From Streptomyces flavochromogenes (GTDB taxonomy: Bacteria; Actinomycetota; Actinomycetes; Streptomycetales; Streptomycetaceae), in contig NZ_JNZO01000019.1 in the NCBI RefSeq assembly GCF_000717595.1, positions 62,001-126,000 of the forward strand: a DNA stretch of 64,000 bases, given 5' to 3'. The notes below the pieces were generated by a model that saw only the letters and a program-made list of their open reading frames with translations, did not search any database and had not been told where the DNA came from. Below are positions 2,769 through 51,709 of this stretch, in pieces. The position numbers and the translations under genes were made by a program. Positions within the stretch are counted from its first letter, which is position 1. Every line of letters begins with the position of its first letter.

Positions 2769-4466
2769 TCAGGCCTGGCGGCGGACCTCCACCACCCGGA
2801 AGCGGTTGGAGACGAAGGCGCCGTCGCACAGGGCCGCGTTCGCCGCCGGGTTGCCGCCGGAGCCGTGGAAGTCGGAGAACGCGGCGGTCTGGTTCACATA
2901 GACCCCGCCCGTGAGGTTCAGCGACAGCTGCGCCGACTCCTCCAGACAGACCTCCTCCACCGCACGCTCGACGTCCGCCGAGGTCGTGTAGGCCCCGACC
3001 GTCATCGCGCCCTTCTCGCGGACCGTGCGCCGCAGCAGCTCCAGGGCGTCGGCGGTGGAGTCCACCGAGACGGCGAAGGAGACCGGGCCGAAGCACTCCG
3101 AGAAGTACGCGGCCTGGGCGTCCGGCTTGGATCCGTCCAGCTTCACGACGACCGGCGTACGGACCACCGCGTCCGGGTAGTCCGGGTTGACGACCTCGCG
3201 GGAGGCGAGCGCCACCTCGCCGAGACCGGCGGCGGCCTCGAGTCGCGCCTTCACGTCCGGGTTGACCAGGGCGCCCAGCAGACCGTTCGCCCGGGCGTCG
3301 TCGCCGAGCAGACCGCCGACCGACGCGGCGAGGTCGGCGACGACCTCGTCGTACGACTTGGGGCCCTGGTCGGTGGTGATGCCGTCGCGGGGGATCAGCA
3401 GGTTCTGCGGGGTGGTGCACATCTGGCCGCTGTACAGGGACAGCGAGAAGGCCAGGTTGGCGAGCATCCCCTTGTAGTCGTCGGTGGAGTCGACCACCAC
3501 CGTGTTGACGCCGGCCTTCTCGGTGTAGACCTGCGCCTGGCGGGCGTTCGCCTCCAGCCAGTCGCCGAAGGCGGTCGAGCCGGTGTAGTCGATGATCCGG
3601 ATCTCGGGGCGCACGGCCAGGGTCTTGGCGATGCCCTCGCCCGGCCACTCGACGGCGAGCGCGACCAGGTTCGGGTCGAAGCCGGACTCGGCGAGCACCT
3701 CACGGGCGACCTGCACGGTCAGCGCGAGCGGGAGCACCGCGCGCGGGTGCGGCTTGACCAGGACCGGGTTGCCGGTGGCGAGGGAGGCGAACAGGCCCGG
3801 GTAGCCGTTCCACGTGGGGAAGGTGTTGCAGCCGATCACCAGGGCGATGCCGCGGCCGACCGGGGTGAACTCCTTGCTCAGCTCCAGGGGGTCGCGCTTG
3901 CCCTGCGGCTTGGACCAGTCGGCCCTGCCGGCGGGGGTGCGGGTCTGCTCCGCGTACGCGTACGCCACGGCCTCCAGGCCGCGGTCCTGGGCGTGCGGGC
4001 CGCCGGCCTGGAACGCCATCATGAACGCCTGGCCGCTGGTGTGCATGACGGCGTGGGCGAACTCGTGGGTGCGGGCGGAGATCCGGGCGAGGATCTCCAG
4101 ACAGACCAGGGCGCGGGTCTCGGCCCCGGCGTCGCGCCAGGCACCCATGCCCGCGCGCATCGCGGGGAGCAGGACGTCGATGTCGGCGTGCGGGTACTCG
4201 ATGCCGAGCTCCGGGCCGTACGGCGAGGTCTCGCCGCCGGTCCAGCCGTCGGTGCCGGGCTGGTCGAGCTCGAAGCGGGTGTTCAGCAGGGCCTGGTGGG
4301 CGGCGAGACCGGCCGCCGCGTCGAGCGAGCCGCCCTCCCCGTACGCCTTCGGGTGCTCGGGATACGGCGACCAGTAGGCACGGGTCCGGATGGTGTCGAG
4401 CGCCTGGTCGAGCGTGGACCGGTGCTTCTCGGCCAGACGGTCGGTGGTCGGCAGAGCGGTGGCCAT
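2769..4466 (-). CDS. paaN: Phenylacetic acid degradation protein PaaN (aldehyde dehydrogenase family)
   Basis: Protein of 565 residues of the aldehyde dehydrogenase superfamily, PaaN type (dehydrogenase only, without the hydratase domain fused in E. coli PaaZ). It should oxidise the semialdehyde from ring opening in the phenylacetyl-CoA pathway using NAD(P). Visible motifs: nucleotide-binding region with PVLVKPHPRAV, and the probable catalytic Cys350 in SGQMCTTPQNLL. The ATG at 4466 was chosen over longer in-frame starts because GAGGAG lies 11 bases upstream and the protein then begins at the family's usual N-terminus. It is transcribed divergently from paaH across a palindromic operator. The paaABCDEK oxygenase genes are not in this window. 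Confidence 0.9.
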   Translation of the reverse strand: MATALPTTDRLAEKHRSTLDQALDTIRTRAYWSPYPEHPKAYGEGGSLDAAAGLAAHQALLNTRFELDQPGTDGWTGGETSPYGPELGIEYPHADIDVLLPAMRAGMGAWRDAGAETRALVCLEILARISARTHEFAHAVMHTSGQAFMMAFQAGGPHAQDRGLEAVAYAYAEQTRTPAGRADWSKPQGKRDPLELSKEFTPVGRGIALVIGCNTFPTWNGYPGLFASLATGNPVLVKPHPRAVLPLALTVQVAREVLAESGFDPNLVALAVEWPGEGIAKTLAVRPEIRIIDYTGSTAFGDWLEANARQAQVYTEKAGVNTVVVDSTDDYKGMLANLAFSLSLYSGQMCTTPQNLLIPRDGITTDQGPKSYDEVVADLAASVGGLLGDDARANGLLGALVNPDVKARLEAAAGLGEVALASREVVNPDYPDAVVRTPVVVKLDGSKPDAQAAYFSECFGPVSFAVSVDSTADALELLRRTVREKGAMTVGAYTTSADVERAVEEVCLEESAQLSLNLTGGVYVNQTAAFSDFHGSGGNPAANAALCDGAFVSNRFRVVEVRRQA

Positions 4467-4522
4467 GAGTGGACCAACTCCTCGTCGAGCTGGGCAGGGA
4501 GACACGTACGGAGTTAGAGTAA

Positions 4523-4538
4523 CCGAACGATCGGTCGG
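4523..4538. promoter_or_regulatory. Palindromic operator in the paaN/paaH divergent promoter region
   Basis: CCGAACGATCGGTCGG is an inverted repeat with 7 of 8 base pairs matching, typical in size and form of a TetR-family operator. The TetR gene two positions away (6198) is the obvious candidate. A 14/16 identical copy lies before the bkd operon (7625-7640). Confidence 0.65.
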
Positions 4539-4590
4539 GACAAGGGGGCCTGTCGATCCTGTGGAAAACCCATCGGGGAGGATCACTCCT

Positions 4591-6201
4591 ATGAGCGCCA
4601 ACGTGACCGTCAGGGGGAGCGACGACGTGACCGCCAGTGAGCCTGCCGCCGCCGTGGAGGCATCCGAAGCCGTGGCCGGAGGGGTCCTGGGCCCCGTCGG
4701 GCGGGACCGGACCGTCGCCGTCGTCGGCACCGGCACCATGGGCCAGGGCATCGCCCAGGTCGCACTGGTCGCCGGCCACCCCGTGCGGCTCTACGACAGC
4801 GCCCCCGGCCGCGCCGAGGAGGCCGTGGCCGCCCTCACGGCACGCCTCGACCGCCTCGTCGAGAAGGGGCGTCTCGACGCCACCGCGCGCGAGGCCGCCG
4901 CCGGACGCCTGTACGCCGCCCAGGACCTCGGGGAGCTCGCGGACGCGGCGCTCGTCGTCGAGGCGATCGTCGAGCTGCTCCCCGTCAAGCAGCAGCTCTT
5001 CGCCGACCTGGAGAAGGTCGTCGGCGACGACACCGTCCTCGCCACCAACACCTCCTCGCTCTCCGTCACCGCCATCGCGGGAGGCCTGCGGCTGCCCGGC
5101 CGGTTCGTCGGACTGCACTTCTTCAACCCGGCGCCGCTGCTCCCCCTCGTCGAGGTCGTCAGCGGCTTCGCCACCGAGCCGGACGTCGCCACGCGCGCGT
5201 ACGAGACGGTGAAGGGCTGGGGGAAGACCCCGGTGCGCTGCGCGGACACCCCCGGTTTCATCGTGAACCGGGTCGCCCGTCCGTTCTACGCGGAGGCGCT
5301 GAGGGTCTTCGAGGAGGGCGCGGCCGACCCGGCCACCATCGACGCGGCCCTGCGCGAGTGCGGCGGCTTCAAGATGGGCCCGTTCGAGCTGACCGACCTC
5401 ATCGGCCAGGACGTGAACGAGGCCGTGACCCGGTCCGTCTGGGAGTCCTTCCACCAGGACCCGAAGTTCACGCCGTCGCTCGCGCAGCGGCGGCTCGTGG
5501 AGTCGGGGCGCCTCGGCCGCAAGACGGGCCAGGGCTGGTTCTCGTACGCGGAGGGCGCCGAGCGGCCCGAGCCGCACACGGCGGCGCCGGCGCCGGCGCC
5601 CGAGCGGATCGTCGTCCGGGGCGATCTCGGACCGGCGGAGCCTCTGGTGGGGCTTTTCGAGGCGGCCGGGATCGCGGTCCGGCGCAAGAAGGGGGACGGC
5701 GGGTACATCAAGCTGCCGTGCGGCGGCGAGCTCAGCCTCGCGGACGGCGAGTCCTCCTTCGAGTACCACAAGGAGGAGATCCTCTACTTCGACCTCGCGC
5801 TCGACTACGCCGCCGCGAGCAGGATCGTGCTGTCGGCGCGCGAGGGCGTCGACCCCGAGGTCCTCGCGGAGGCGGTGGGGCTCTTCCAGGCTCTCGGCAA
5901 GAAGGTCTCCGTCATCGGGGACGTGCCCGGCATGATCGTCGCCCGTACGGTCGCCATGCTGGCCGATGTCGCGGCCGACGCGGTCGACCGGGGCGTCGCG
6001 ACGGCGGAGGACGTGGACACGGCGATGCGGCTCGGGGTCAACTATCCCGCCGGACCGCTGGAGTGGGCGGGGAAGGTCGGCTACCGGCGCACGTGCGGTC
6101 TGCTGAGCGAGCTGCACTCGCGGTATGCGAACGGCCGCTACGCGCCGGGTATCGGTCTCATGCGCCGGGGGTACGCCGAGGAAGCGGGGGACTCCCGATG
6201 A
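4591..6201 (+). CDS. paaH: 3-hydroxyacyl-CoA dehydrogenase, PaaH type
   Basis: Protein of 536 residues. An N-terminal Rossmann domain carries the NAD motif VVGTGTMGQGIAQVA at about residues 48-62, followed by the 3-hydroxyacyl-CoA dehydrogenase C-domain with HFFNPAPLLPLVEVV (catalytic His region) and DTPGFIVNRVARPFYAEA, and a second C-domain copy at residues 430-530. It is the two-lobed PaaH arrangement that oxidises 3-hydroxyadipyl-CoA to 3-oxoadipyl-CoA in phenylacetate breakdown, though related 3-hydroxybutyryl-CoA enzymes look alike. Start ATG 4591 has GGGGAGG ten bases upstream; the first 40 residues are a low-complexity Ala/Glu-rich extension, so an internal GTG (4627) remains possible. 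Its stop overlaps the TetR start. Confidence 0.87.
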   Translation: MSANVTVRGSDDVTASEPAAAVEASEAVAGGVLGPVGRDRTVAVVGTGTMGQGIAQVALVAGHPVRLYDSAPGRAEEAVAALTARLDRLVEKGRLDATAREAAAGRLYAAQDLGELADAALVVEAIVELLPVKQQLFADLEKVVGDDTVLATNTSSLSVTAIAGGLRLPGRFVGLHFFNPAPLLPLVEVVSGFATEPDVATRAYETVKGWGKTPVRCADTPGFIVNRVARPFYAEALRVFEEGAADPATIDAALRECGGFKMGPFELTDLIGQDVNEAVTRSVWESFHQDPKFTPSLAQRRLVESGRLGRKTGQGWFSYAEGAERPEPHTAAPAPAPERIVVRGDLGPAEPLVGLFEAAGIAVRRKKGDGGYIKLPCGGELSLADGESSFEYHKEEILYFDLALDYAAASRIVLSAREGVDPEVLAEAVGLFQALGKKVSVIGDVPGMIVARTVAMLADVAADAVDRGVATAEDVDTAMRLGVNYPAGPLEWAGKVGYRRTCGLLSELHSRYANGRYAPGIGLMRRGYAEEAGDSR

Positions 6202-6791
6202 CCACCGCCAAGCGCGACACCTACACCCCGGAGACGCTGCTCTCGGTGGCCGTGCGGGTCTTCAACGAGCGCGGCTACGACGGCACGTCCATGGAGCACC
6301 TCTCCAAGGCGGCCGGGATCTCCAAGTCGTCGATCTACCACCATGTGTCCGGCAAGGAGGAGCTGCTGCGGCGGGCGGTCAGCCGGGCGCTCGACGGGCT
6401 CTTCGCGATCCTCGACGAGCCGGACGCCGGGCGCGGCCGGGCCGTCGAGCGGGTCGAGTACGTCACGCGCCGCACCGTGGAGGTGCTGATCGCGGAGCTG
6501 CCGTACGTGACGCTGCTCCTGCGGGTGCGCGGCAACACCGGCACCGAGCGGTGGGCCATGGAGCGGCGGCGCGAGTTCGACCACAAGGTGGCCGACCTGC
6601 TCAAGGCGGCCGCCGAGGAGGGCGATCTGCGGGCCGATGTGGACATCAGGCTCGCGACCCGGCTGCTCTTCGGAATGATCAATTCGCTGGTGGAGTGGTA
6701 CCGGCCGCATCCGGACGCGGCGGCGGAGCGCGAGCAGCTCGCGGAGACCGTCGCGCACCTGGCGTTCGACGGGCTCAGGACGGCCCGCTGA
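6198..6791 (+). CDS. paaR: TetR/AcrR family regulator (PaaR-like)
   Basis: Protein of 197 residues. The N-terminal helix-turn-helix of TetR proteins is clear: FNERGYDGTSMEHLSKAAGI followed by SKSSIYHHVSGKEELL. The remainder is a helical ligand-binding and dimerisation domain. The ATG overlaps the paaH stop by four bases, so it is co-translated with the pathway enzyme. Family knowledge: actinobacterial PaaR repressors are released by phenylacetyl-CoA. By inference it binds the palindrome at 4523-4538 and perhaps the near-identical site at 7625-7640 before bkdA. The gene name rests on context rather than on a unique motif. Confidence 0.8.
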   Translation: MTTAKRDTYTPETLLSVAVRVFNERGYDGTSMEHLSKAAGISKSSIYHHVSGKEELLRRAVSRALDGLFAILDEPDAGRGRAVERVEYVTRRTVEVLIAELPYVTLLLRVRGNTGTERWAMERRREFDHKVADLLKAAAEEGDLRADVDIRLATRLLFGMINSLVEWYRPHPDAAAEREQLAETVAHLAFDGLRTAR

Positions 6792-44303: not shown

Positions 44304-46109
44304 ATGAACGATGCCGCTTCGGCGCCCACTCCCGCGCCCGCGTCCCGCCGTGCCCGTGTCCGCGCCCCCGAGCTGATCGGCAAGGGTGGCTGGCTGAACA
44401 CGGGCGGGGACGATCTGACCCTCGCCGACCTGCGAGGAAAGATCGTTCTGCTCGACTTCTGGACCTTCTGCTGTGTGAACTGCCTCCACGTGCTCGACGA
44501 GCTGCGCGACCTGGAGGAGAAGCACCGCGACACGCTCGTCATCGTCGGCGTGCACTCGCCGAAGTTCGTCCACGAGGCCGAGCACCAGGCCGTCGTCGAC
44601 GCCGTCGAGCGGTACGAGGTGCACCACCCCGTCCTCGACGACCCGGAGCTCGCGACGTGGAAGCAGTACGCCGTGCGCGCGTGGCCGACGCTCGTCGTGA
44701 TCGACCCCGAGGGGTACGTCGTCGCCCAGCACGCGGGTGAGGGGCACGCCAACGCGATCCGGACGCTCGTCGAGGAGCTGGAGGCCGAGCACGAGGCCAA
44801 GGGGACCCTGCGGCGCGGCGACGGACCGTACGTGGCGCCCGAGCCCGTCGCCACCGACCTGCGCTTCCCGGGCAAGGCGATCCTTCTGCCCTCCGGGAAC
44901 CTCCTGGTCTCCGACACCACCCGGCACCAGCTCGTCGAGCTGGCCGCCGACGGCGAGACCGTCGTACGGCGGATCGGCGAGGGCGTCTTCCGGGAGCCGC
45001 AGGGCCTCACGCAGCTGCCCGACGGCACCGTCGTCGTCGCGGACACCGTGAACCACGCCCTGCGCGTCCTCGACCCGGCGACCGGCGCGATCGAGCGGAT
45101 CGCCGGCACCGGGAAGCAGTGGTGGCAGGGCTCCCCCACGTCCGGGCCCGCCCTGGACGTCGACCTGTCCTCGCCGTGGGACGTCGCCTGGTGGCAGGGC
45201 AAGGTGTGGATCGCCATGGCCGGCGTCCACCAGCTGTGGACGTACGACCCGGCCACCAAGACCGTCGAGGTCGCGGCCGGCACCACCAACGAGGGGCTCG
45301 TCGACGGGCCCGCCGCCGAGGCCTGGTTCGCGCAGCCCTCCGGGCTCGCCGCCACCGAGGACCGGCTGTGGGTCGCCGACTCCGAGACCAGCGCGCTGCG
45401 CTGGGTCGACACGGAGGGCGTGGTCCACACCGCCGTCGGCACCGGACTCTTCGACTTCGGCCACCGCGACGGCGCCGCCGGCCAGGCCCTGCTCCAGCAC
45501 CCGCTGGGCGTGACGGCCCTCCCGGACGGCTCGGTCGCGGTCTCCGACACGTACAACCACGCCCTGCGCCGCTACGACCCGGCGTCCGGCGAGGTGACGA
45601 CGCTCGCCACGGACCTGCGCGAGCCCAGCGACGCGGTCCTCGTCGACGGCGACATCGTGGTCGTCGAGTCCGCCCGGCACCGGCTGACCCGGCTGCGTCT
45701 CCCCGAGGAGGCCGTCCGGGTCGAGGCCGTCGCCCACCGCACCCGCCGCGAGGCCACCGAGGTCGCCCCGGGCCGCCTCCGTCTGGACGTGGTCTTCCAG
45801 GCGCCCACCGGCCAGAAGCTGGACGAGCGGTACGGCCCCTCGACCCGCCTCCTGGTCTCCTCGACCCCGCCGGAACTGCTCCTCGCGGGCGAGGGCACGG
45901 GCACGGACCTCTTCCGCGAGCTCGACCTCGACCCCGAGCTCACCGAGGGCGTCCTGCACGTCTCGGCCATGGCCGCGTCCTGCGACGACGACCCGGCGAA
46001 CGAGTACCCGGCCTGCCACGTCCACCAGCAGGACTGGGGCGTCCCGGTGAAGATCACGGAGGCGGGTGTGTCCCGGCTGCCGCTGATCCTGGCCGGTATG
46101 GACGCGTAG
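44304..46109 (+). CDS. Thioredoxin-like protein with NHL beta-propeller
   Basis: Protein of 601 residues. The N-terminal thioredoxin/TlpA-like domain (25-160) has the redox motif WTFCCVNC (Cys57-Val-Asn-Cys60) and the cis-Pro segment RAWPTLVVIDPEG. NHL repeats follow, forming a propeller (about 190-480; QGLTQLPDGTVVVADTVNHA, LWVADSETSALRWVD), then a C-terminal domain related to the thiol:disulfide interchange region. There is no signal peptide, so it is cytosolic. It resembles human NHLRC2. Redox partner unknown. It ends face to face with the small membrane protein gene, whose stop codon begins on the next base. Confidence 0.87.
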   Translation: MNDAASAPTPAPASRRARVRAPELIGKGGWLNTGGDDLTLADLRGKIVLLDFWTFCCVNCLHVLDELRDLEEKHRDTLVIVGVHSPKFVHEAEHQAVVDAVERYEVHHPVLDDPELATWKQYAVRAWPTLVVIDPEGYVVAQHAGEGHANAIRTLVEELEAEHEAKGTLRRGDGPYVAPEPVATDLRFPGKAILLPSGNLLVSDTTRHQLVELAADGETVVRRIGEGVFREPQGLTQLPDGTVVVADTVNHALRVLDPATGAIERIAGTGKQWWQGSPTSGPALDVDLSSPWDVAWWQGKVWIAMAGVHQLWTYDPATKTVEVAAGTTNEGLVDGPAAEAWFAQPSGLAATEDRLWVADSETSALRWVDTEGVVHTAVGTGLFDFGHRDGAAGQALLQHPLGVTALPDGSVAVSDTYNHALRRYDPASGEVTTLATDLREPSDAVLVDGDIVVVESARHRLTRLRLPEEAVRVEAVAHRTRREATEVAPGRLRLDVVFQAPTGQKLDERYGPSTRLLVSSTPPELLLAGEGTGTDLFRELDLDPELTEGVLHVSAMAASCDDDPANEYPACHVHQQDWGVPVKITEAGVSRLPLILAGMDA

Positions 46110-46454
46110 TCAGCGGACGAGACCCTGATGCCTGGACGGCCGCCCGGCGGCGGCGTCCAGGCACCCGTCCACCCAGGCGGCCGGGTCGTGCACGGCCCGG
46201 TCGCCGCCCATGCCCTGCCGCTCCATGAGCGCGCACTCCCCGGCGAGCAGCGCCTTCGTCCGCGAGCCGTCCACGTCGTACCCGCGGATCCGGGACGCCA
46301 TGATGAAGCCGCCCTCGTAGGCGATGTCCGTCCCCCACGGCGGCCGGTCGTTGTACGTGCCGATCAACACCCCCGCCGCCGCCGTGGCGACCACGACGGC
46401 GCCCCCGACACCCGCGAAGAACCTGCCCCGGGAGGGCCCCTCATGACGATGCAT
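46110..46454 (-). CDS. Small single-pass membrane protein of unknown function
   Basis: Protein of 114 residues. Basic N-terminus, one membrane helix at about 11-32 (FFAGVGGAVVVATAAAGVLI), then a soluble external part with ECALMERQGMGGDRA and a second Cys in WVDGCLDAA, possibly a disulfide pair. No known domain. ATG 46454 with AGGG about nine bases upstream. The stop codon directly abuts that of the thioredoxin gene. It lies at the edge of the accessory segment and by codon bias still looks like core sequence. Confidence 0.65.
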   Translation of the reverse strand: MHRHEGPSRGRFFAGVGGAVVVATAAAGVLIGTYNDRPPWGTDIAYEGGFIMASRIRGYDVDGSRTKALLAGECALMERQGMGGDRAVHDPAAWVDGCLDAAAGRPSRHQGLVR

Positions 46455-46507
46455 GAGGCGACCCTGCCAAGCGGCACCTTTCGCGGATGTTTCGCGACCG
46501 GGGCCGC

Positions 46508-48835
46508 CTACTCCGCGTAGGTGTCCTCGTCGTCCACCACGTCGTACGGATCCTCGCCCAGGTCGTCGGCCGGGGTCCTGCGCCGCAGGTTCTCCACGTC
46601 GGTCTGGATGCCCAGGAGCAGCTTGTGGAGGTCGTCGAGCGTGCTCAGTGGCGCGAGCGGGGTGTGCTCGCCGACCTCCGGCTCCAGGGCGAGGAGGCGG
46701 TCCATGGCGTCCCGGGCAGCCAGCACATGGAGGCGCAGATCCTTGCGGTGCTCGGCCGCCCGCTGGCTCGGGGGCACGGGCGTGTCGAAGGTCCTGGGCG
46801 GGGGAATGGCGCCGGAGGCCGGGGTGCCGTCCTCGGGGAACTGTCCTTCGAACTCGGGAATCCAGTCCGGATCGGCGTCCGAGCCGCCCTCCTCGTTAGA
46901 GGGGGAGGAGGACGGAGCCTGCTGGGTGGCGGGAGCGGGGCCGGGGACCACGGGCTTCTTGACTCGGTCCGGGTCGGACGCGGCGACGACGTCCCACTCG
47001 TAGAGCAGCACCGGAACGCCGTCCGCGGTCCGCGCGATCTTGTCCTCCGCCGTCAGATCGACCTGGAAGTAGGCGTAGGGCTTCTCGTCGGACTCGGCCG
47101 TCTCCCTCCCGGTGAGGCTCTGCCTGGTGACCGAGTTCAGCGGCAGGTCGTCGGCCCGGAAGGTGTTGGCGGCTGTCGCCAGGGTCCAGAGGCCCAGCTC
47201 GTTGCCCTCACGGGACAGCCCTTCGATGACGACGCTGGTGTCGGCCCGGAACGGGACTCCGCTCTTCTCCTTCGGCGCGTCGAGCGACGAGCCGACGTTT
47301 CGCGTGAGCAGTTTGTCCGCGATCAGCGCCACACCGCCGGCCACGGCCAGCGTGCAGCGGGCGTTGACGTCCCCGAGCAGGGCCGGCTCCACCAGCGTGG
47401 TGAAGTCGTCCGTGGGCACGGGATCCCATTCGCCGGTGACCACGGCGGCAAGCACGCCGCCGTTGCTCCACGCGTTGCGCGCGGTCTTGGTGACCAGGCT
47501 CTTCCGCGAGCGCCACGGCAGGTCGATCATCGGTCCGAGCAGGCCGCCGAAGGCCTTCATGGCCATACGCTTGCCGCCCTTGATGGCCTTGGCCTGGTCT
47601 TTGAGCGCCTCAAGCAGGTCGGGCTTGGTCAGGGCGCTGACCAAGTAGACGGCGCGCCAGAGTGCGGTGCCCGGAGGGCGCCCGGTGCTGCCGAACACCT
47701 CAGGGAGGTCGGCCACGGGGATGCGGCCGACAGCGAGCCCGTACACGTCCTGGAGGTCGGAGGTGCTCCAGCGAGGATCTCCGATCTGGATGACTCGCTT
47801 GAGCGCACGCGTGATGACCTCCACGTTCTGGGCGGCGGTGTCCCACTGCCTGAACTCGACGTGGATCGAAGCGAGTACGGAGCGGATGGCGTCGTCGAAG
47901 AGGTCTTCCGGAGACAGCAGACGCCCCGTGTGCCCGTCGACGCCGACGGCGATCTGAGCCGGCACGGCGTAGGACTGGAAGATCTGGGCAGCGCGCGGTC
48001 CGGGCACCTCTCCCTTGATCTCCGCGTCGAACTCCTCCCGGAGCTTCGCTCGCCATGACGCTCGGGAGTCCGCCAGACGTTTTCCCAGGTCAGAGCCGTT
48101 TTCTTGGGCTGAGGCGACCGAGATGCCGCCGAGGAGAGCGTCCGTGGCCGTCGTGGCGACGGTGCTCGGTTCCTCGCCCGGCCCGGCGTACACGGACCAG
48201 GTGCTCGCGAGCCGGGTGATGCCGTCCCGTACCACGAGCACCTCGACCGGATCGGTGCCGTCCTCGAACGTGATCCTGACCGGATGGACGATCAGGTTGC
48301 GGGTCACCGACCGGGTCAGGATCGACTGGGCGTAGCTGTTGATCGACAGCGTGGAGTTGATGGTCTGCCACATGTGATCCCGCAGGTGGGCGAAACTTTC
48401 GTAGCGGTACTCGACGATCGCGCTCGGCTGTCCGTCGTGGGTCAGGCCCTGGACCTGGGGGTCGGGGACCTCCATGACCGACATGCCGGTGCGTGGCTGG
48501 ATGCCGGGGAACAGCTCACTCGTCAGGACGCGGGTCCCGGCCGAGCGGAGTGTGGCGCCCTCGACGTTCTCGGCCATGAGGATGCCGGTGGGGTCGCTCG
48601 GGGTGGGGCGGAGCTGGACGGCCAGGGCGTCGGGGTGGGTCGTGGCACGGGCTATGGCGGCCCAGGCGCCGTCCGGAAGCTGAATCCCCGGGTTGCTCAG
48701 CGCGGCGGAGAGGACGGCGCTCTGCTGCTCGGCGGTCGGCTCCTGGGGGAGCTGGCGGGCGATGTTGGCAACCTGGACGGTTTCCCCTTCCCAGGGGACG
48801 TCCAGAGTGAGAGTGGTGGTCGGGCCTGTGGACAC
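46508..48835 (-). CDS. Large uncharacterised protein with ParB-N-like segment (accessory)
   Basis: Protein of 775 residues, no signal peptide, no obvious membrane span. Residues about 168-215 read like a ParB/sulfiredoxin-type N-domain: SYAQSILTRS, then LIVHPVRITF and VVRDGITRLAS, matching the usual order 'elaeSI...G...PI.V...dG.rRL.A'. The canonical GERR is here GITR. The remainder, helical to about 590, has FRADTSVVIEGLSREGNELG; an acidic Pro/Ser linker (about 615-690) and a C-terminal helical, coiled-coil-like end follow. GTG 48835 has a perfect AAGGAGG eight bases upstream. Function unknown; DNA- or nucleotide-related activity is a hypothesis only. It is downstream of the 232-residue gene across a 21-bp hairpin. 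Confidence 0.65.
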   Translation of the reverse strand: MSTGPTTTLTLDVPWEGETVQVANIARQLPQEPTAEQQSAVLSAALSNPGIQLPDGAWAAIARATTHPDALAVQLRPTPSDPTGILMAENVEGATLRSAGTRVLTSELFPGIQPRTGMSVMEVPDPQVQGLTHDGQPSAIVEYRYESFAHLRDHMWQTINSTLSINSYAQSILTRSVTRNLIVHPVRITFEDGTDPVEVLVVRDGITRLASTWSVYAGPGEEPSTVATTATDALLGGISVASAQENGSDLGKRLADSRASWRAKLREEFDAEIKGEVPGPRAAQIFQSYAVPAQIAVGVDGHTGRLLSPEDLFDDAIRSVLASIHVEFRQWDTAAQNVEVITRALKRVIQIGDPRWSTSDLQDVYGLAVGRIPVADLPEVFGSTGRPPGTALWRAVYLVSALTKPDLLEALKDQAKAIKGGKRMAMKAFGGLLGPMIDLPWRSRKSLVTKTARNAWSNGGVLAAVVTGEWDPVPTDDFTTLVEPALLGDVNARCTLAVAGGVALIADKLLTRNVGSSLDAPKEKSGVPFRADTSVVIEGLSREGNELGLWTLATAANTFRADDLPLNSVTRQSLTGRETAESDEKPYAYFQVDLTAEDKIARTADGVPVLLYEWDVVAASDPDRVKKPVVPGPAPATQQAPSSSPSNEEGGSDADPDWIPEFEGQFPEDGTPASGAIPPPRTFDTPVPPSQRAAEHRKDLRLHVLAARDAMDRLLALEPEVGEHTPLAPLSTLDDLHKLLLGIQTDVENLRRRTPADDLGEDPYDVVDDEDTYAE

Positions 48836-48883
48836 GGTGGTGACCTCCTTGATGGAGAGGCAGTGGGGAACGAGTACGGCGAG

Positions 48884-48934
48884 CGCCCCTCCGGGCGGCG
48901 GCGAGGCAGGTGATCGCCGCCGCCCGGAGGGGCG
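48884..48934 (-). terminator. 21-bp perfect hairpin between the two accessory genes
   Basis: Stem of 21 perfect pairs with a 9-base loop, 10 bases after the 232-residue gene's stop and 49 bases before the start of the 775-residue gene. No U-tract. It acts as a terminator or as an attenuator setting the ratio of the two products. Confidence 0.7.
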
Positions 48935-48943
48935 TTGTGCGTG

Positions 48944-49642
48944 CTAGAGCTCGATCGGGGACTCGGCACCCGGCGGCGGCGACGAGGGCCGTCGCGGGTC
49001 GTCTGTCGTGGCCGGACGGTGGAGGTACTGGTGGCTCGCCCAGGCGTGGTCCCGCGCAAGGTCGACGGGAAGCAGGGTGTCGGCCTCGGAACAAGGCAGC
49101 CCGGCGAGCAGCGGGGAGCCGGGCGGAAGAAGGACCGTACGGTGCTGGGTGAGGTGGTACCCGACGGGGGCGCCGCCCCGCACGCGCATGAGGGCGAGGG
49201 TCGTAGCCCCGTCGGTGAGGCGGTTGGCGATCCTCGCCATAGCCCGCAGGAAGGCCTGCTCCTCGTGGGTCTCCCGCATGTGGAAGACGGTCGTCCTGGC
49301 GGCGGTGAGGGAGGCCAGGGTCCGGAAGAACTCAGCCGGGGGGCCGCCGAAGGGGCCCGGGCGGGGCCGCCTCATCACCTTCAGGTGCAACGTCAACCGG
49401 TCCAGGAAGGCGGGGAGTTCATCGGCCGCGAGCGAAATGGCGGAGAGGGTGGCCCGTCCCCGCCAGCGCGAGTAGCCCATGGCGTGGAAGGACGGGGGCG
49501 GGGCGTCTCGCGCAGGGGGCAACTGGACGTCGATCATCCGCTTCATGACGTGGTGCGACGGCGCGGATTCCGGCGTGAGACCGGTGGAGGCCTCGGTCGA
49601 GTCGTGCTCGCCGAGGCGGGGGGTGTGCGGTGCGGAGCTCAT
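48944..49642 (-). CDS. Uncharacterised accessory protein
   Basis: Protein of 232 residues, soluble. A Pro/Ser-rich start, then a helical core (ATLSAISLAADELPAFLDRL, FFRTLASLTAARTTVFHMRE, EEQAFLRAMARIANRLTDGA) and a Pro/Ser-rich end. ATG 49642 has GGAGG eight bases upstream, giving a clear start; a longer in-frame ATG lacks one. No family recognised. It is upstream of, and in the same direction as, the 775-residue gene, with a hairpin between. The 270 bases upstream (49643-49912) hold no convincing gene and are less G+C rich than the flanks. Confidence 0.6.
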   Translation of the reverse strand: MSSAPHTPRLGEHDSTEASTGLTPESAPSHHVMKRMIDVQLPPARDAPPPSFHAMGYSRWRGRATLSAISLAADELPAFLDRLTLHLKVMRRPRPGPFGGPPAEFFRTLASLTAARTTVFHMRETHEEQAFLRAMARIANRLTDGATTLALMRVRGGAPVGYHLTQHRTVLLPPGSPLLAGLPCSEADTLLPVDLARDHAWASHQYLHRPATTDDPRRPSSPPPGAESPIEL

Positions 49643-49912
49643 GATGGGCGCCTCCGGGGCTCTACGGGGCGCCGACCGCACGCAACACGCCGTGCAATGA
49701 GCCCAGTTGGATAGTGCGACTGCCCTATGAGCGTGGCACGGTCGCGATCTGGGGCGCAACGGCTAATCAGGTTATGGCCGGAACCTAAGCACCTTGAGAT
49801 TTCCCCCTCATCTTCAGGCGTCCTGGTGAGACGACATGGCAAAGGTAACTCGCCGCTCAGGGGCAGCACATGTAAATACGCCACCGTCTATGGCATGCAG
49901 ACGCCGCCGTAG

Positions 49913-50254
49913 TTAGAGCAATCCCTCTTTGGCGTTCGGGTAGTTATCGAAAAGCTTAGGGAGAGGGTTCTGTCCTAGCCTGTCCAGGTTGGCGAACACC
50001 GAGGCCACATCAGTGATTTCACCCAGGATGCTGTCCTTCTGGATGATCCAGACGAAATCGTTCTCGGATGTCGGAAGTGTCCGAGGGATCGTCGTCAGGC
50101 CGAGCCTACTCAGCTCTGCGCTGATCTGGGTGCACAGCTCCCTGCTCAAGCGCGATCGGAGTCCCTCGGTCGCACGATCCTTGAGGAAGCGCATGCTGAG
50201 CCGCTTGGCGCCGTCATCGCACTCGACGGCGTGCTTGATAAGAGTGAGGTCCAT
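49913..50254 (-). CDS. Small low-G+C gene of unknown function
   Basis: Protein of 113 residues, soluble and mixed alpha/beta (RSRLSRELCTQISAELSRLG, VWIIQKDSILGEITDVASVF). No family recognised. A hand count of 49921-50040 gives 64 G+C in 120 bases (53%), far below the neighbouring genes, and codons such as CTT and ACT are used, so recent acquisition is likely. A 13-base palindrome ends against the ATG and no ribosome site is visible, so the gene may be leaderless and autoregulated. The stop is TAA, unusual for this genome. It could be a small regulator or one half of a toxin-antitoxin-like pair, without direct evidence. Confidence 0.6.
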   Translation of the reverse strand: MDLTLIKHAVECDDGAKRLSMRFLKDRATEGLRSRLSRELCTQISAELSRLGLTTIPRTLPTSENDFVWIIQKDSILGEITDVASVFANLDRLGQNPLPKLFDNYPNAKEGLL

Positions 50255-50267
50255 AACTTAGTAAGTT
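50255..50267. promoter_or_regulatory. Palindrome touching the start of the 113-residue gene
   Basis: AACTTAGTAAGTT: two 6-base arms around one base, directly adjoining the ATG of the minus-strand gene in an A+T-rich promoter. Likely operator for self-control. Confidence 0.55.
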
Positions 50268-50342
50268 ACTGAATTAGGAACCCAGTTGTGAAGAGGGGGC
50301 CCGTCCCACCCCTCCCACCTGCGACTTCTCCCCAAAAGAGTA

Positions 50343-50374
50343 CCGCTCCTGGCCCAAGCGCGAACCAGGAGCGG
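50343..50374. terminator. Hairpin downstream of M18 aminopeptidase
   Basis: Perfect 10-bp stem (CCGCTCCTGG) with a 12-base loop, 27 bases after the aminopeptidase stop on the minus strand. It marks the right edge of the accessory segment. Confidence 0.6.
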
Positions 50375-50401
50375 GGAGTTCGGCTCGGATGCGGGTACGT
50401 A

Positions 50402-51709
50402 TCAGCCCTCCAGGAAGGCGACCAGGGCGTTGGCCAGGAGGTACGGGTCGTCGGCGCCGCAGAGTTCGCGGGCGCTGTGCATGGAGAGGATCGCCACGCC
50501 GATGTCGACCGTCTTGATGCCGTGGCGCGCGGCGGTGATCGGGCCGATCGTCGTGCCGCAGGGCATGTCGTTGTTGGAGACGAACGACTGCCACGGCACG
50601 CCCGCCTTCTCGCAGGCGGCGGCGAAGACCGCGCGGCCGCTGCCGTCGGTGGCGTACCGCTGGTTGACGTTCACCTTGAGGATCGGGCCGCCGTTGACGC
50701 GCGGGTGGTGCGTCGGGTCGTGGCGCTCCGCGTAGTTCGGGTGGACGGCGTGGCCGGTGTCGGAGGAGAGGCAGACGGTGCCGGCGAAGGCCCGGGCGCG
50801 GTCCTCGTAGGAGCCGCCGCGCGCGTACACCGAACGCTCCAGGACGTTGCCGAGGAGCGGGCCCTGGGCGCCGGTGTCGGCCTCGGAGCCGTTCTCCTCG
50901 TGGTCGAAGGCGGCGAGGACCGGGATGTACGGGAGGTCGTCGCGGCCCGCGAGGGAGGCGAGCGCGGCGACGGCGGCGTGCACGGACAGCAGGTTGTCCA
51001 TGCGCGGCCCGGCGAGCAGCTCGCGGTCGCGGCCCAGATAGGCGGGCGCGTCGACGGCGTGCACCATCAGGTCCCAGCCGCTCACGTCCTCGGCGTCGAC
51101 CCCGGCCTCGGCGGCGACGAAGGAGATCAGGTCGCCCTCGTGGACCTCGCCGATGCCCCAGATCGGCTGCATGTGGCGCTGGCGCTCCAGCTTGAGGCCG
51201 TCGTTGACGCCCCGGTCGAGGTGGATCGCGAGCTGCGGGACGCGCAGCAGCGGCCGGTCCACGTTGACCAGGTGGTGGCTGCCGTCGCGGAGCGTGAGCC
51301 GCCCGGCGAGGCCGAGGTCGCGGTCGAGCCAGGTGTTGAGCAGGGTGCCGCCGTAGATCTCGACCGCGACCTGTCGCCAGCCGTGCGCGCCCATGTCGGG
51401 CTGCGGCTTGACGCGGAGGTTGGGGGAGTCGGTGTGGGCGCCGACGATCCGGTACGGGGTGTGGGCGGAGGCGCCCTCCGGCACGTACCAGGCGATGATC
51501 GCGCCGCCGCGGATCACGTACTTCCCGCCGCTCGTGGCGTCCCAGGCGGCCGTCTCCTCGACCCGGCGGAACCCGGCCTTCTCAAGCCGCTCGGCGGCGC
51601 TCGCGACCGCGTGGTACGGCGAGGGCGAGGCCGTCAGGAAGGCCATGAGGTCGTCGGTGTGTCCGCGGTCGAAGGGGCCTGCGGCGGGACGGGAGGCTGC
51701 GCTGCTCAT
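50402..51709 (-). CDS. M18 family aminopeptidase
   Basis: Protein of 435 residues of the M18 (DAP/ApeB) metallopeptidase family with zinc-site motifs RIVGAHTDSPNLRVKP (His, Asp), AAFDHEENGSE (Glu, Glu) and the C-terminal DIGVAILSMHSARE (His). It is a tetrahedral cytosolic enzyme that trims N-terminal residues, in the family preferring aspartate or neutral residues. ATG 51709 is favoured by AAGGTGG six bases upstream; a GTG three codons earlier is possible. It is divergent from the YCII-like gene. Confidence 0.9.
   Translation of the reverse strand: MSSAASRPAAGPFDRGHTDDLMAFLTASPSPYHAVASAAERLEKAGFRRVEETAAWDATSGGKYVIRGGAIIAWYVPEGASAHTPYRIVGAHTDSPNLRVKPQPDMGAHGWRQVAVEIYGGTLLNTWLDRDLGLAGRLTLRDGSHHLVNVDRPLLRVPQLAIHLDRGVNDGLKLERQRHMQPIWGIGEVHEGDLISFVAAEAGVDAEDVSGWDLMVHAVDAPAYLGRDRELLAGPRMDNLLSVHAAVAALASLAGRDDLPYIPVLAAFDHEENGSEADTGAQGPLLGNVLERSVYARGGSYEDRARAFAGTVCLSSDTGHAVHPNYAERHDPTHHPRVNGGPILKVNVNQRYATDGSGRAVFAAACEKAGVPWQSFVSNNDMPCGTTIGPITAARHGIKTVDIGVAILSMHSARELCGADDPYLLANALVAFLEG

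Follow-up and report, generated by a model that had tools for sequence, protein, structure and literature searches.

A patchily distributed three-gene cassette of Streptomyces flavochromogenes with a motif-less DUF3800 descendant as a candidate defence-like module

DUF3800 (PF12686) proteins are RNase-H-fold accessory nucleases that occur in some V-A2 and VI-F CRISPR loci, as described in two reports (PMC10910872, PMC12669027). Here, we describe a small group of genes in Streptomyces flavochromogenes, one of which is a diverged descendant of this family. It lies in a stretch of 64,000 nucleotides of contig NZ_JNZO01000019.1, hereafter called the window. The explanation that we favour, and to which we assign about an even chance, is that of a horizontally acquired, self-regulated, defence-like cassette with its origin in a two-gene nuclease system; in the copy described here, the nuclease subunit would be disarmed.

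The three genes form one accessory cassette. It occupies about 3895 bases (46507..50401, no strand; ends accurate to within some bases) between NHL-side core sequence and the stop codon of an M18 aminopeptidase gene (50402), and its ORFs of 775, 232, and 113 residues are all read on the minus strand, as an earlier note on this DNA had stated. That note also saw an accessory segment in a core setting, which is borne out by an empty site in genome G162, whose flank proteins are 99% identical to those of the window. In a blastn comparison, positions 46000-50600 of the window matched G162 at 95.7% identity as far as 46506 and at 98.1% identity from 50402 onward, the two flank matches being separated by 25 bases at the empty site; in four further empty sites, the NHL-side match stops at 46495-46501. 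A fourth small ORF (46110-46454) is located between the NHL gene and the 775-aa gene. Because its sequence occurs in the empty-site relative, it belongs to the core flank and lies outside the cassette.

Between the conserved flanks, the presence of the cassette is patchy and not fixed in nearly all Streptomyces: it occupies the NHL-M18 site in 2 of the 114 genomes that could be assessed. With a threshold of E 1e-3 and the strain's own genome included each time, the 775-aa family was matched in 11 of 199 Streptomyces genomes (two of them remote), in 12 of 200 genomes of the same family (several remote), and, with a query from locus L028, in 6 of 296 genomes of the same class (two marginal). At L009, identity to the window is 91-94% in the core flanks, yet just 64% in the 775-aa protein. 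The cassette has probably moved between genomes. One relative (L158) immediately follows the integrase gene of a pSAM2-type AICE (RepSA, E 1.3e-161), the relatives in L003, L007, L008, L010, L021, and L047 have a complete or fragmented related integrase next to them, and some relatives are plasmid-borne or have BREX or cytosine-methylase genes nearby. The co-occurrence of the genes was also compared: among the 29 loci with enough upstream sequence, the 113-aa gene is placed ahead of the 775-family gene in 24, and the middle gene is found in 27.

Because the NHL-M18 gap often holds a BTAD (SARP-type) regulator in other species, the genes might instead constitute a chromosomal module that regulates development or antibiotic production. 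The gap exceeds 2.5 kb in 30 further genomes, many of them with a cluster of which the single member checked has BTAD; however, the genes in those gaps show no similarity to the cassette proteins, neither flank gene was seen in 19 of the 31 relative loci within the stretch examined around each, and some relatives lie beside integrases and AICE genes. We regard such a module as very improbable.

Base composition had been brought forward in the earlier note as a sharp fall in G+C. The fall itself is present (53.3% at 49921-50040, with 72.0% in the window as a whole) and is confined to the 113-aa gene (57.6%) and its spacers, the 232-aa and 775-aa genes having 72.2% and 69.4%, respectively. As a sign of recent arrival, it fails. 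The 113-aa gene also has a low G+C content (56.8-64.0%) at all 22 other loci where it was measured, and its composition therefore cannot date the insertion.

The 113-aa protein (49913..50254, minus strand) is a predicted winged-helix-like regulator. Its database matches were weak only (E 0.026-0.25 across Pfam, PADLOC, PHROGs, and NCBIfam), and fold comparison of residues 1-77 likewise gave weak matches, many of them titled as winged-helix regulators. The model (pLDDT 90.0) comprises the elements H4-12, E16-20, H21-28, H38-50, E53-56, E67-72, and H76-92 and conforms to the winged-helix topology H-(E)-H-H-E-E, which suggests DNA binding through this fold. The gene lacks a Shine-Dalgarno sequence and is probably leaderless, in which case its transcript would begin with the A of the ATG. 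Directly abutting its ATG is an operator-like imperfect palindrome (50255..50275, no strand; consensus AACTCAGTAnnnTACTGAGTT). Such a palindrome abuts the start in 23 of the 24 loci with the 113-aa gene, 21 of these sites lying within 3 mismatches, and no palindrome within 3 mismatches was found in the 5 assessable loci devoid of the gene. One site per genome was detected in 4 of 4 carriers searched and none in 2 of 2 non-carriers, and the presence of the gene on the tree corresponds to a single change. Conservation and uniqueness point to an operator; since a winged-helix-like model is combined with a carrier-only palindrome at the gene's own start codon, the 113-aa protein is probably an autorepressor.

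The 775-aa core protein (46508..48835, minus strand) is encoded by a gene whose GTG start is preceded, at a distance of 8 bases, by the perfect Shine-Dalgarno sequence AAGGAGG (48844..48850, minus strand) that had been claimed for it. In the AlphaFold2 model (mean pLDDT 77.5), an N-terminal alpha/beta region, which carries an invariant R-D-G-x-T-R (203-208), is followed by a helical middle, a low-confidence linker, and C-terminal helices; in the fold comparison, the core had no informative match, and the alignments covered mainly the C-terminal helices. No Pfam family was matched at E up to 1, and thus no PF02195 (ParB_N), nor was there a match above the cut-off in Pfam, PADLOC, PHROGs, or NCBIfam. 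The family contains at least 224 proteins, nearly all named 'hypothetical' where a name is shown.

What remains of the ParB-like segment proposed for this protein is a motif. D-G-x-x-R is present in 47 of 47 aligned family sequences, the model places strand 197-204 and then helix 206-217 around it, and the better alignments to ParB_N set DGITR on the GERR box; the motif also hints at an ability to bind nucleotides. These features, and the existence of plasmid relatives, would suit a ParB-type partition module or a DndB/DGQHR-type regulatory module of plasmid origin. Profile comparison did not show homology: the best probability was 2.2% for ParB (P 0.022, not significant) and 0.9% for DndB, with the motif unaligned, against 99.5% between two ParB sets, in a test that is not very sensitive (DndB against ParB, 0.1%). 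Moreover, parS sites are clustered, unlike the single palindrome per genome. We consider a partition or DndB-like module quite improbable.

The middle gene encodes the 232-aa protein (48944..49642, minus strand, within a longer listed ORF). It matched no Pfam family at E up to 1, hence gave no direct PF12686 match, and had no match above the cut-off in Pfam, PADLOC, PHROGs, or NCBIfam. To this extent, three genes of no recognised family, as first described, are indeed present; the middle one, on profile evidence, is nevertheless a diverged DUF3800 gene, descended through intermediates from this RNase-H-fold nuclease family. Proteins at the same gene position are connected by hhalign from intact to intermediate, from intermediate to mid, and from mid to the window clade at 99.9, 98.3, and 99.1%; direct comparison of DUF3800 with the window clade gives no signal (0.2%). 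No reversed or shuffled decoy appeared among the hmmsearch results at E up to 10, and 7 of the 24 middle proteins match PF12686 (E up to 0.01). Other relatives have an intact DUF3800 gene immediately upstream of their 775-family gene. Across the aligned motif-bearing DUF3800 proteins, three acids are invariant (11 of 11), and the motifs D[DE]SG, DGxG, and QxAD are all absent from the window protein. Among 29 assessable loci, all three motifs occur in 8, two in 2, and none in 17, the gene being missing from 2; motif-less or lost rows form one clade (support 100/98, and 86/97 in a second tree). The lost motifs are putatively the catalytic ones, and this DUF3800 descendant would then not be a working member of the family.

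Downstream of this gene, before the 775-aa gene, lies a perfect 21-bp inverted repeat with a 9-base loop (48884..48934, minus strand), whose arms are exact complements (MFE -61.8; z -6.9 against composition shuffles). Of the 20 such spacers that were folded, 9 gave a z at or below -2.4, and most others were near zero or above.

In L010, L012, L023, L024, and L042, the middle gene is truncated, in fragments, or not found, and in L041 it is split, as would be expected of a decaying relic, that is, a mobile-element remnant with a dead nuclease whose remainder persists by chance or slow decay. In three intact pairs, its dN/dS (0.10-0.26) resembles that of the 775-aa gene (0.10-0.24), and in motif-less pairs it is the higher of the two in 7 of 8 (0.24-0.60 and 0.17-0.30), these pairs not being independent. 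The rest of the cassette argues against decay: among 11 pairs computed, dN/dS is 0.06-0.36 for the 775-aa gene (11 pairs) and the 113-aa gene (9 pairs), numerous residues of both proteins do not vary among relatives whose identity to the window is 46-85%, and the palindrome has been retained. A relic is, in our estimation, unlikely.

The small autoregulator-like first gene, the operator-like palindrome at its start, and the mobile setting would also be in line with a toxin-antitoxin system, in which the DUF3800 descendant is the toxin, the 113-aa protein an autorepressing antitoxin, and the 775-aa protein an accessory. Yet the pair of DUF3800 and 775-family genes occurs without the 113-aa gene in L025-L028, L031, L044-L046, and L160-L164, and L012, L023, and L042, in which no DUF3800-type gene was found, retain the 113-aa gene. 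Obligate linkage of the two small genes therefore fails, each occurring with the 775-aa family without the other, and we hold this arrangement to be distinctly improbable.

A small defence, plasmid-derived, or regulatory module, as originally suggested, is compatible with the AICE, integrase, plasmid, BREX, and methylase settings of relatives, although defence itself is unproven. The cassette matched no known anti-phage system model in PADLOC-DB (the 113-aa protein weakly, at E 0.026), nor, at E up to 0.01, did the relatives' 775-family (3), DUF3800 (2), 347-aa, and 277-aa proteins. A few remote relatives have a GIY-YIG-like (3 relatives) or methylase/restriction-type gene beside the 775-family gene, the neighbours in L047 being a C5-methylase and an unassigned 277-aa protein. 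The cassette may be part of a system for defence against phages or plasmids, with intact cutters still present in the system's relatives.

In the self-regulated, defence-like cassette that we favour, the ancestral pair would consist of the large 775-family protein and an RNase-H-fold nuclease of the DUF3800 family, its gene lying just upstream. The 113-aa winged-helix-like protein is an addition of one lineage; it most likely binds the 21-bp palindrome, which would overlap the leaderless promoter of its own gene, and thereby holds the operon in a repressed state until it is needed. The DUF3800 partner of this lineage would then have lost its conserved acids, as in the window, and later have decayed or vanished in several genomes, with the large protein staying under purifying selection. 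The role of the family would most likely be defence against incoming DNA (phages, plasmids, integrative elements), the large protein recognising or gating and the partner nuclease cutting; the window copy would act without cleavage by its 232-aa subunit, for example by binding or blocking. A broader reading, which we offer only tentatively, is that an undescribed defence-like system of Actinomycetes has the 775-aa family at its core and interchangeable nucleases as partners, and that one Streptomyces lineage has a new repressor-like gene and a cutter disarmed and later in places discarded, so that the remaining system would work without cutting. The partners concerned are DUF3800 in most relatives, GIY-YIG-like proteins in some plasmid and remote ones, and a methylase with a restriction-type gene in one.

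If these readings are true, a family of mostly 'hypothetical' proteins would become the core of a testable defence-like system. Related strains would offer a natural series from intact nuclease through dead subunit to no subunit, in which one could ask what the system does without its cutter, and Streptomyces genetics would gain a small candidate repressor that has just one operator site.

Compared with known systems, the locus shares parts with several. As in pSAM2-type AICE cargo, the L158 relative comes after RepSA, FtsK-type, and integrase genes; unlike such integrative/conjugative elements, the window insert consists of three genes only, with no integrase, rep, or transfer gene among them. 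The N-terminus of the 775-aa protein bears the strand, D-G-x-x-R, and helix signature of ParB_N and DndB (PF14072) in a plausible box order, but the protein differs from them in having no significant profile match or Pfam hit and 450 further residues. The 113-aa protein resembles winged-helix repressors of the MarR, HlyU, and MecI/BlaI types in its predicted order H-E-H-H-E-E-H and in the palindrome at its own start. Intact relatives of the 232-aa protein retain the D-[DE]-S-G, D-G-x-G, and Q-x-A-D motifs of DUF3800 nucleases; the window copy carries none of them, and its partner is the 775-aa family, not the Cas proteins of the CRISPR loci.

Three minus-strand genes of the window, encoding proteins of 775 (46508-48835), 232 (48944-49642) and 113 residues (49913-50254), form a cassette whose anatomy and history are well supported. 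They had been described in the earlier note as an accessory segment of no recognised family set between core genes, and comparison with other genomes bears out the accessory setting. All three genes are present as claimed, and direct comparison returned no family matches above the cut-off for any of them. In an empty-site relative (G162), whose NHL/thioredoxin and M18 aminopeptidase flank proteins are 99% identical to those of the window, the DNA aligns through 46506 and again from 50402, with merely 25 bases separating both parts. The insert therefore spans approximately 46507-50401 and contains only the three cassette genes; the 114-residue ORF at 46110-46454 is core and lies outside it.

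Among 199 Streptomyces genomes searched, strong matches to the NHL protein occur in 153 and matches to the M18 protein in 195. Based on the best 150 matches of each, both flanks are present in at least 118 genomes, on the same contig in 115, and convergent and less than 20 kb apart in 114 among the matches listed. The gap is below 1 kb in 66 of these 114, 1-2.5 kb in 16 and above 2.5 kb in 32. Two of the 48 gaps of at least 1 kb hold the cassette (the window's own and that of genome G009), and the predicted ORFs of the other 46 include no module proteins, so occupancy is patchy, at 2/114 genomes. The convergent gap, 46110-50401 in the window, is a variable-cargo site across Streptomyces; gaps above 2.5 kb frequently encode large proteins that fall into a single cluster (30 ORFs), the one checked member of which has BTAD, NB-ARC and TPR domains.

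The reported fall in G+C is genuine and is confined to the 113-residue gene and the spacers around it. This gene has a G+C content of 57.6% in the window and 56.8-64.0% in all 22 other loci measured. The perfect AAGGAGG attributed to the 775-residue gene lies 8 bases 5' of its GTG start. Between the 232- and 775-residue genes, a perfect 21-bp hairpin occupies 48884-48934; the corresponding spacers of relatives have hairpins of different sequence in some cases and none in others, with folding z ≤ -2.4 in 9 of 20 spacers folded.

Co-occurrence of the genes was counted in the 29 of 31 genome_contigs loci with upstream sequence. The 113-residue gene is found in 24 of them and the middle, 232-residue gene in 27, the latter by a profile built from many of the same proteins, for which Pfam and chain tests give independent support. 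The loci L007 and L008 are nearly copies of each other, and their middle proteins are identical. For 11 of 15 non-self clusters of the 113-residue protein, the longest contig matches, by eye, the size listed for a 775-family match; the other four are without one.

The middle protein of the window has no direct match to DUF3800 (PF12686), but it is linked to this family through intermediates. Seven of 24 middle proteins match PF12686 at E ≤ 0.01 (best 1.9e-8), the window's not among them. A profile of the intact group (nine proteins) recovers 4/4 intermediates at E ≤ 2.7e-35, with search size set to 30,000, and no reversed or shuffled decoys were returned by hmmsearch at E ≤ 10. The hhalign chain gives 99.9% for intermediates against the intact group, 98.3% for the mid group against intermediates and 99.1% for the window's clade against the mid group; with one step skipped the values are 64.9% and 35.7%, and with the window's clade set directly against the intact group, 0.2%. 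DUF3800 is described as an RNase H fold nuclease family (PMC12669027) and, from AlphaFold2 prediction, as a catalytically rearranged RNase-H fold (PMC10910872). Its motif acids (D-[DE]-S-G, D-G-x-G, Q-x-A-D) are invariant in 11/11 aligned motif-bearing proteins, and, given the fold, the three motifs are probably catalytic.

All three motifs are present in 8 of the 29 loci, two in L022 and L032 (the first motif of L032 lying in the preceding reading frame) and none in 17, while no such gene was found in L012 and L023; it is truncated in L010, fragmented in L024 and split across two pieces in L041. Since the window's protein lacks all three motifs, cleavage by it is unlikely. The middle gene is still under some selection: in eight motif-less pairs, its dN/dS is 0.24-0.60 vs 0.17-0.30 for the 775-residue gene, higher in 7/8, and in three intact pairs the two genes have similar values.

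The core of the 775-residue protein has no match among solved structures by sequence, with the sole exception of a C-terminal match at E 0.8, or by fold comparison. R-D-G-x-T-R is invariant in 52/52 aligned relatives and D-G-x-x-R in 47/47, remote ones included. The ParB-like segment noted earlier stands as a signature, D-G-x-x-R, which the better ParB_N alignments set on the GERR box, but the profile similarity is not significant and no membership is assigned. In calibration, two ParB sets found each other at 99.5% and DndB found ParB at just 0.1%, so the test has limited sensitivity and a distant link may exist.

At E ≤ 1e-3, own genome counted, 775-family matches occur in 11/199 genus genomes (G035 and G153 having remote matches only, at 26-33%), 12/200 family genomes, several of them remote, and 6/296 class genomes, two marginal. 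By tblastn of the flank genes, 12 of the 31 loci lie at the NHL-M18 site (three with M18 without NHL, two with NHL without M18) and 19 show neither flank. On the tree, where site rows number 14 (these 12, the window and L041 of G009), presence at the site takes four changes, at least three forced by starred branches. In L009, identity to the window is 91-94% for the flank proteins and just 64% for the 775-residue protein, which indicates that cassette history departs from species history. Elsewhere, an integrase akin to that of L047, whole or fragmentary, adjoins relatives in L003, L007, L008, L010 and L021, and FtsK-type transfer genes occur in L007 (Pfam), L019 and L026. The L047 integrase ORF (4441-6267) is phage-type, with a LacI-type helix-turn-helix segment in its middle. 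The relative in L158, from another family, is encoded directly after a pSAM2-type element's integrase (RepSA E 1.3e-161). Three plasmids, from Tsukamurella, Kutzneria (as listed; titled Streptomyces) and Streptomyces, carry remote relatives (23-27% identity); no relative was found in the phage records and viral contigs searched. Two like copies of a remote 775-family gene lie near the two ends of contig C1 of G575, an arrangement that terminal inverted repeats of a linear chromosome would produce.

Rows without the motifs or the gene fall into a single clade of 23 (100/98), with L014 and L018 unscored for want of upstream sequence, and the split is retained with remote outgroups (86/97). Presence of the 113-residue gene takes one change (94/100). 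In the simplest order, with the root unsecured, a DUF3800 and 775-family pair would have come first and the 113-residue gene would then have arrived. Its arrival is placed before motif loss because L019-L022 and L032 combine it with motifs wholly or partly retained; motif loss would have followed, and the middle gene would afterwards have been lost repeatedly.

Outside the group paired with DUF3800, ten loci were read, some in part (L047-L049, L155-L158, L165-L167). In the plasmid loci L165 and L167 and in L048, the end of the large gene overlaps with, or directly meets, a gene for a small protein. The invariant residues of these proteins (Y-V, Y-x-G, R, H, E) follow the pattern of GIY-YIG nucleases; only L165 matches in Pfam, sub-threshold (E 0.0088), and the third plasmid relative, L166, lacks such a gene. 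In L048, a DUF3800 gene also lies 2.9 kb downstream. In L047, a C5 methylase and a 277-residue protein, restriction-enzyme-like by eye and matching no Pfam family, precede the large gene. Beside the Tsukamurella plasmid relative, an annotated RNA ligase family gene lies on the opposite strand (L165, 3408-4481). The large protein of L049 is in two parts, with genes called by PADLOC as BREX-type (PglZ, BrxD and BrxHI; L049 128-5606) approximately 2.6 kb upstream. Mainly because of the nuclease neighbours, a pattern of a handful of loci without a statistic, the cassette may function as a defence system. What takes the finding beyond an ordinary unknown segment is the tie between an unnamed family and nuclease partners, together with a natural loss of the nuclease's motifs in a cassette under a candidate switch of its own, the 113-residue predicted winged-helix-like regulator and the palindrome at 50255-50275 abutting its ATG.
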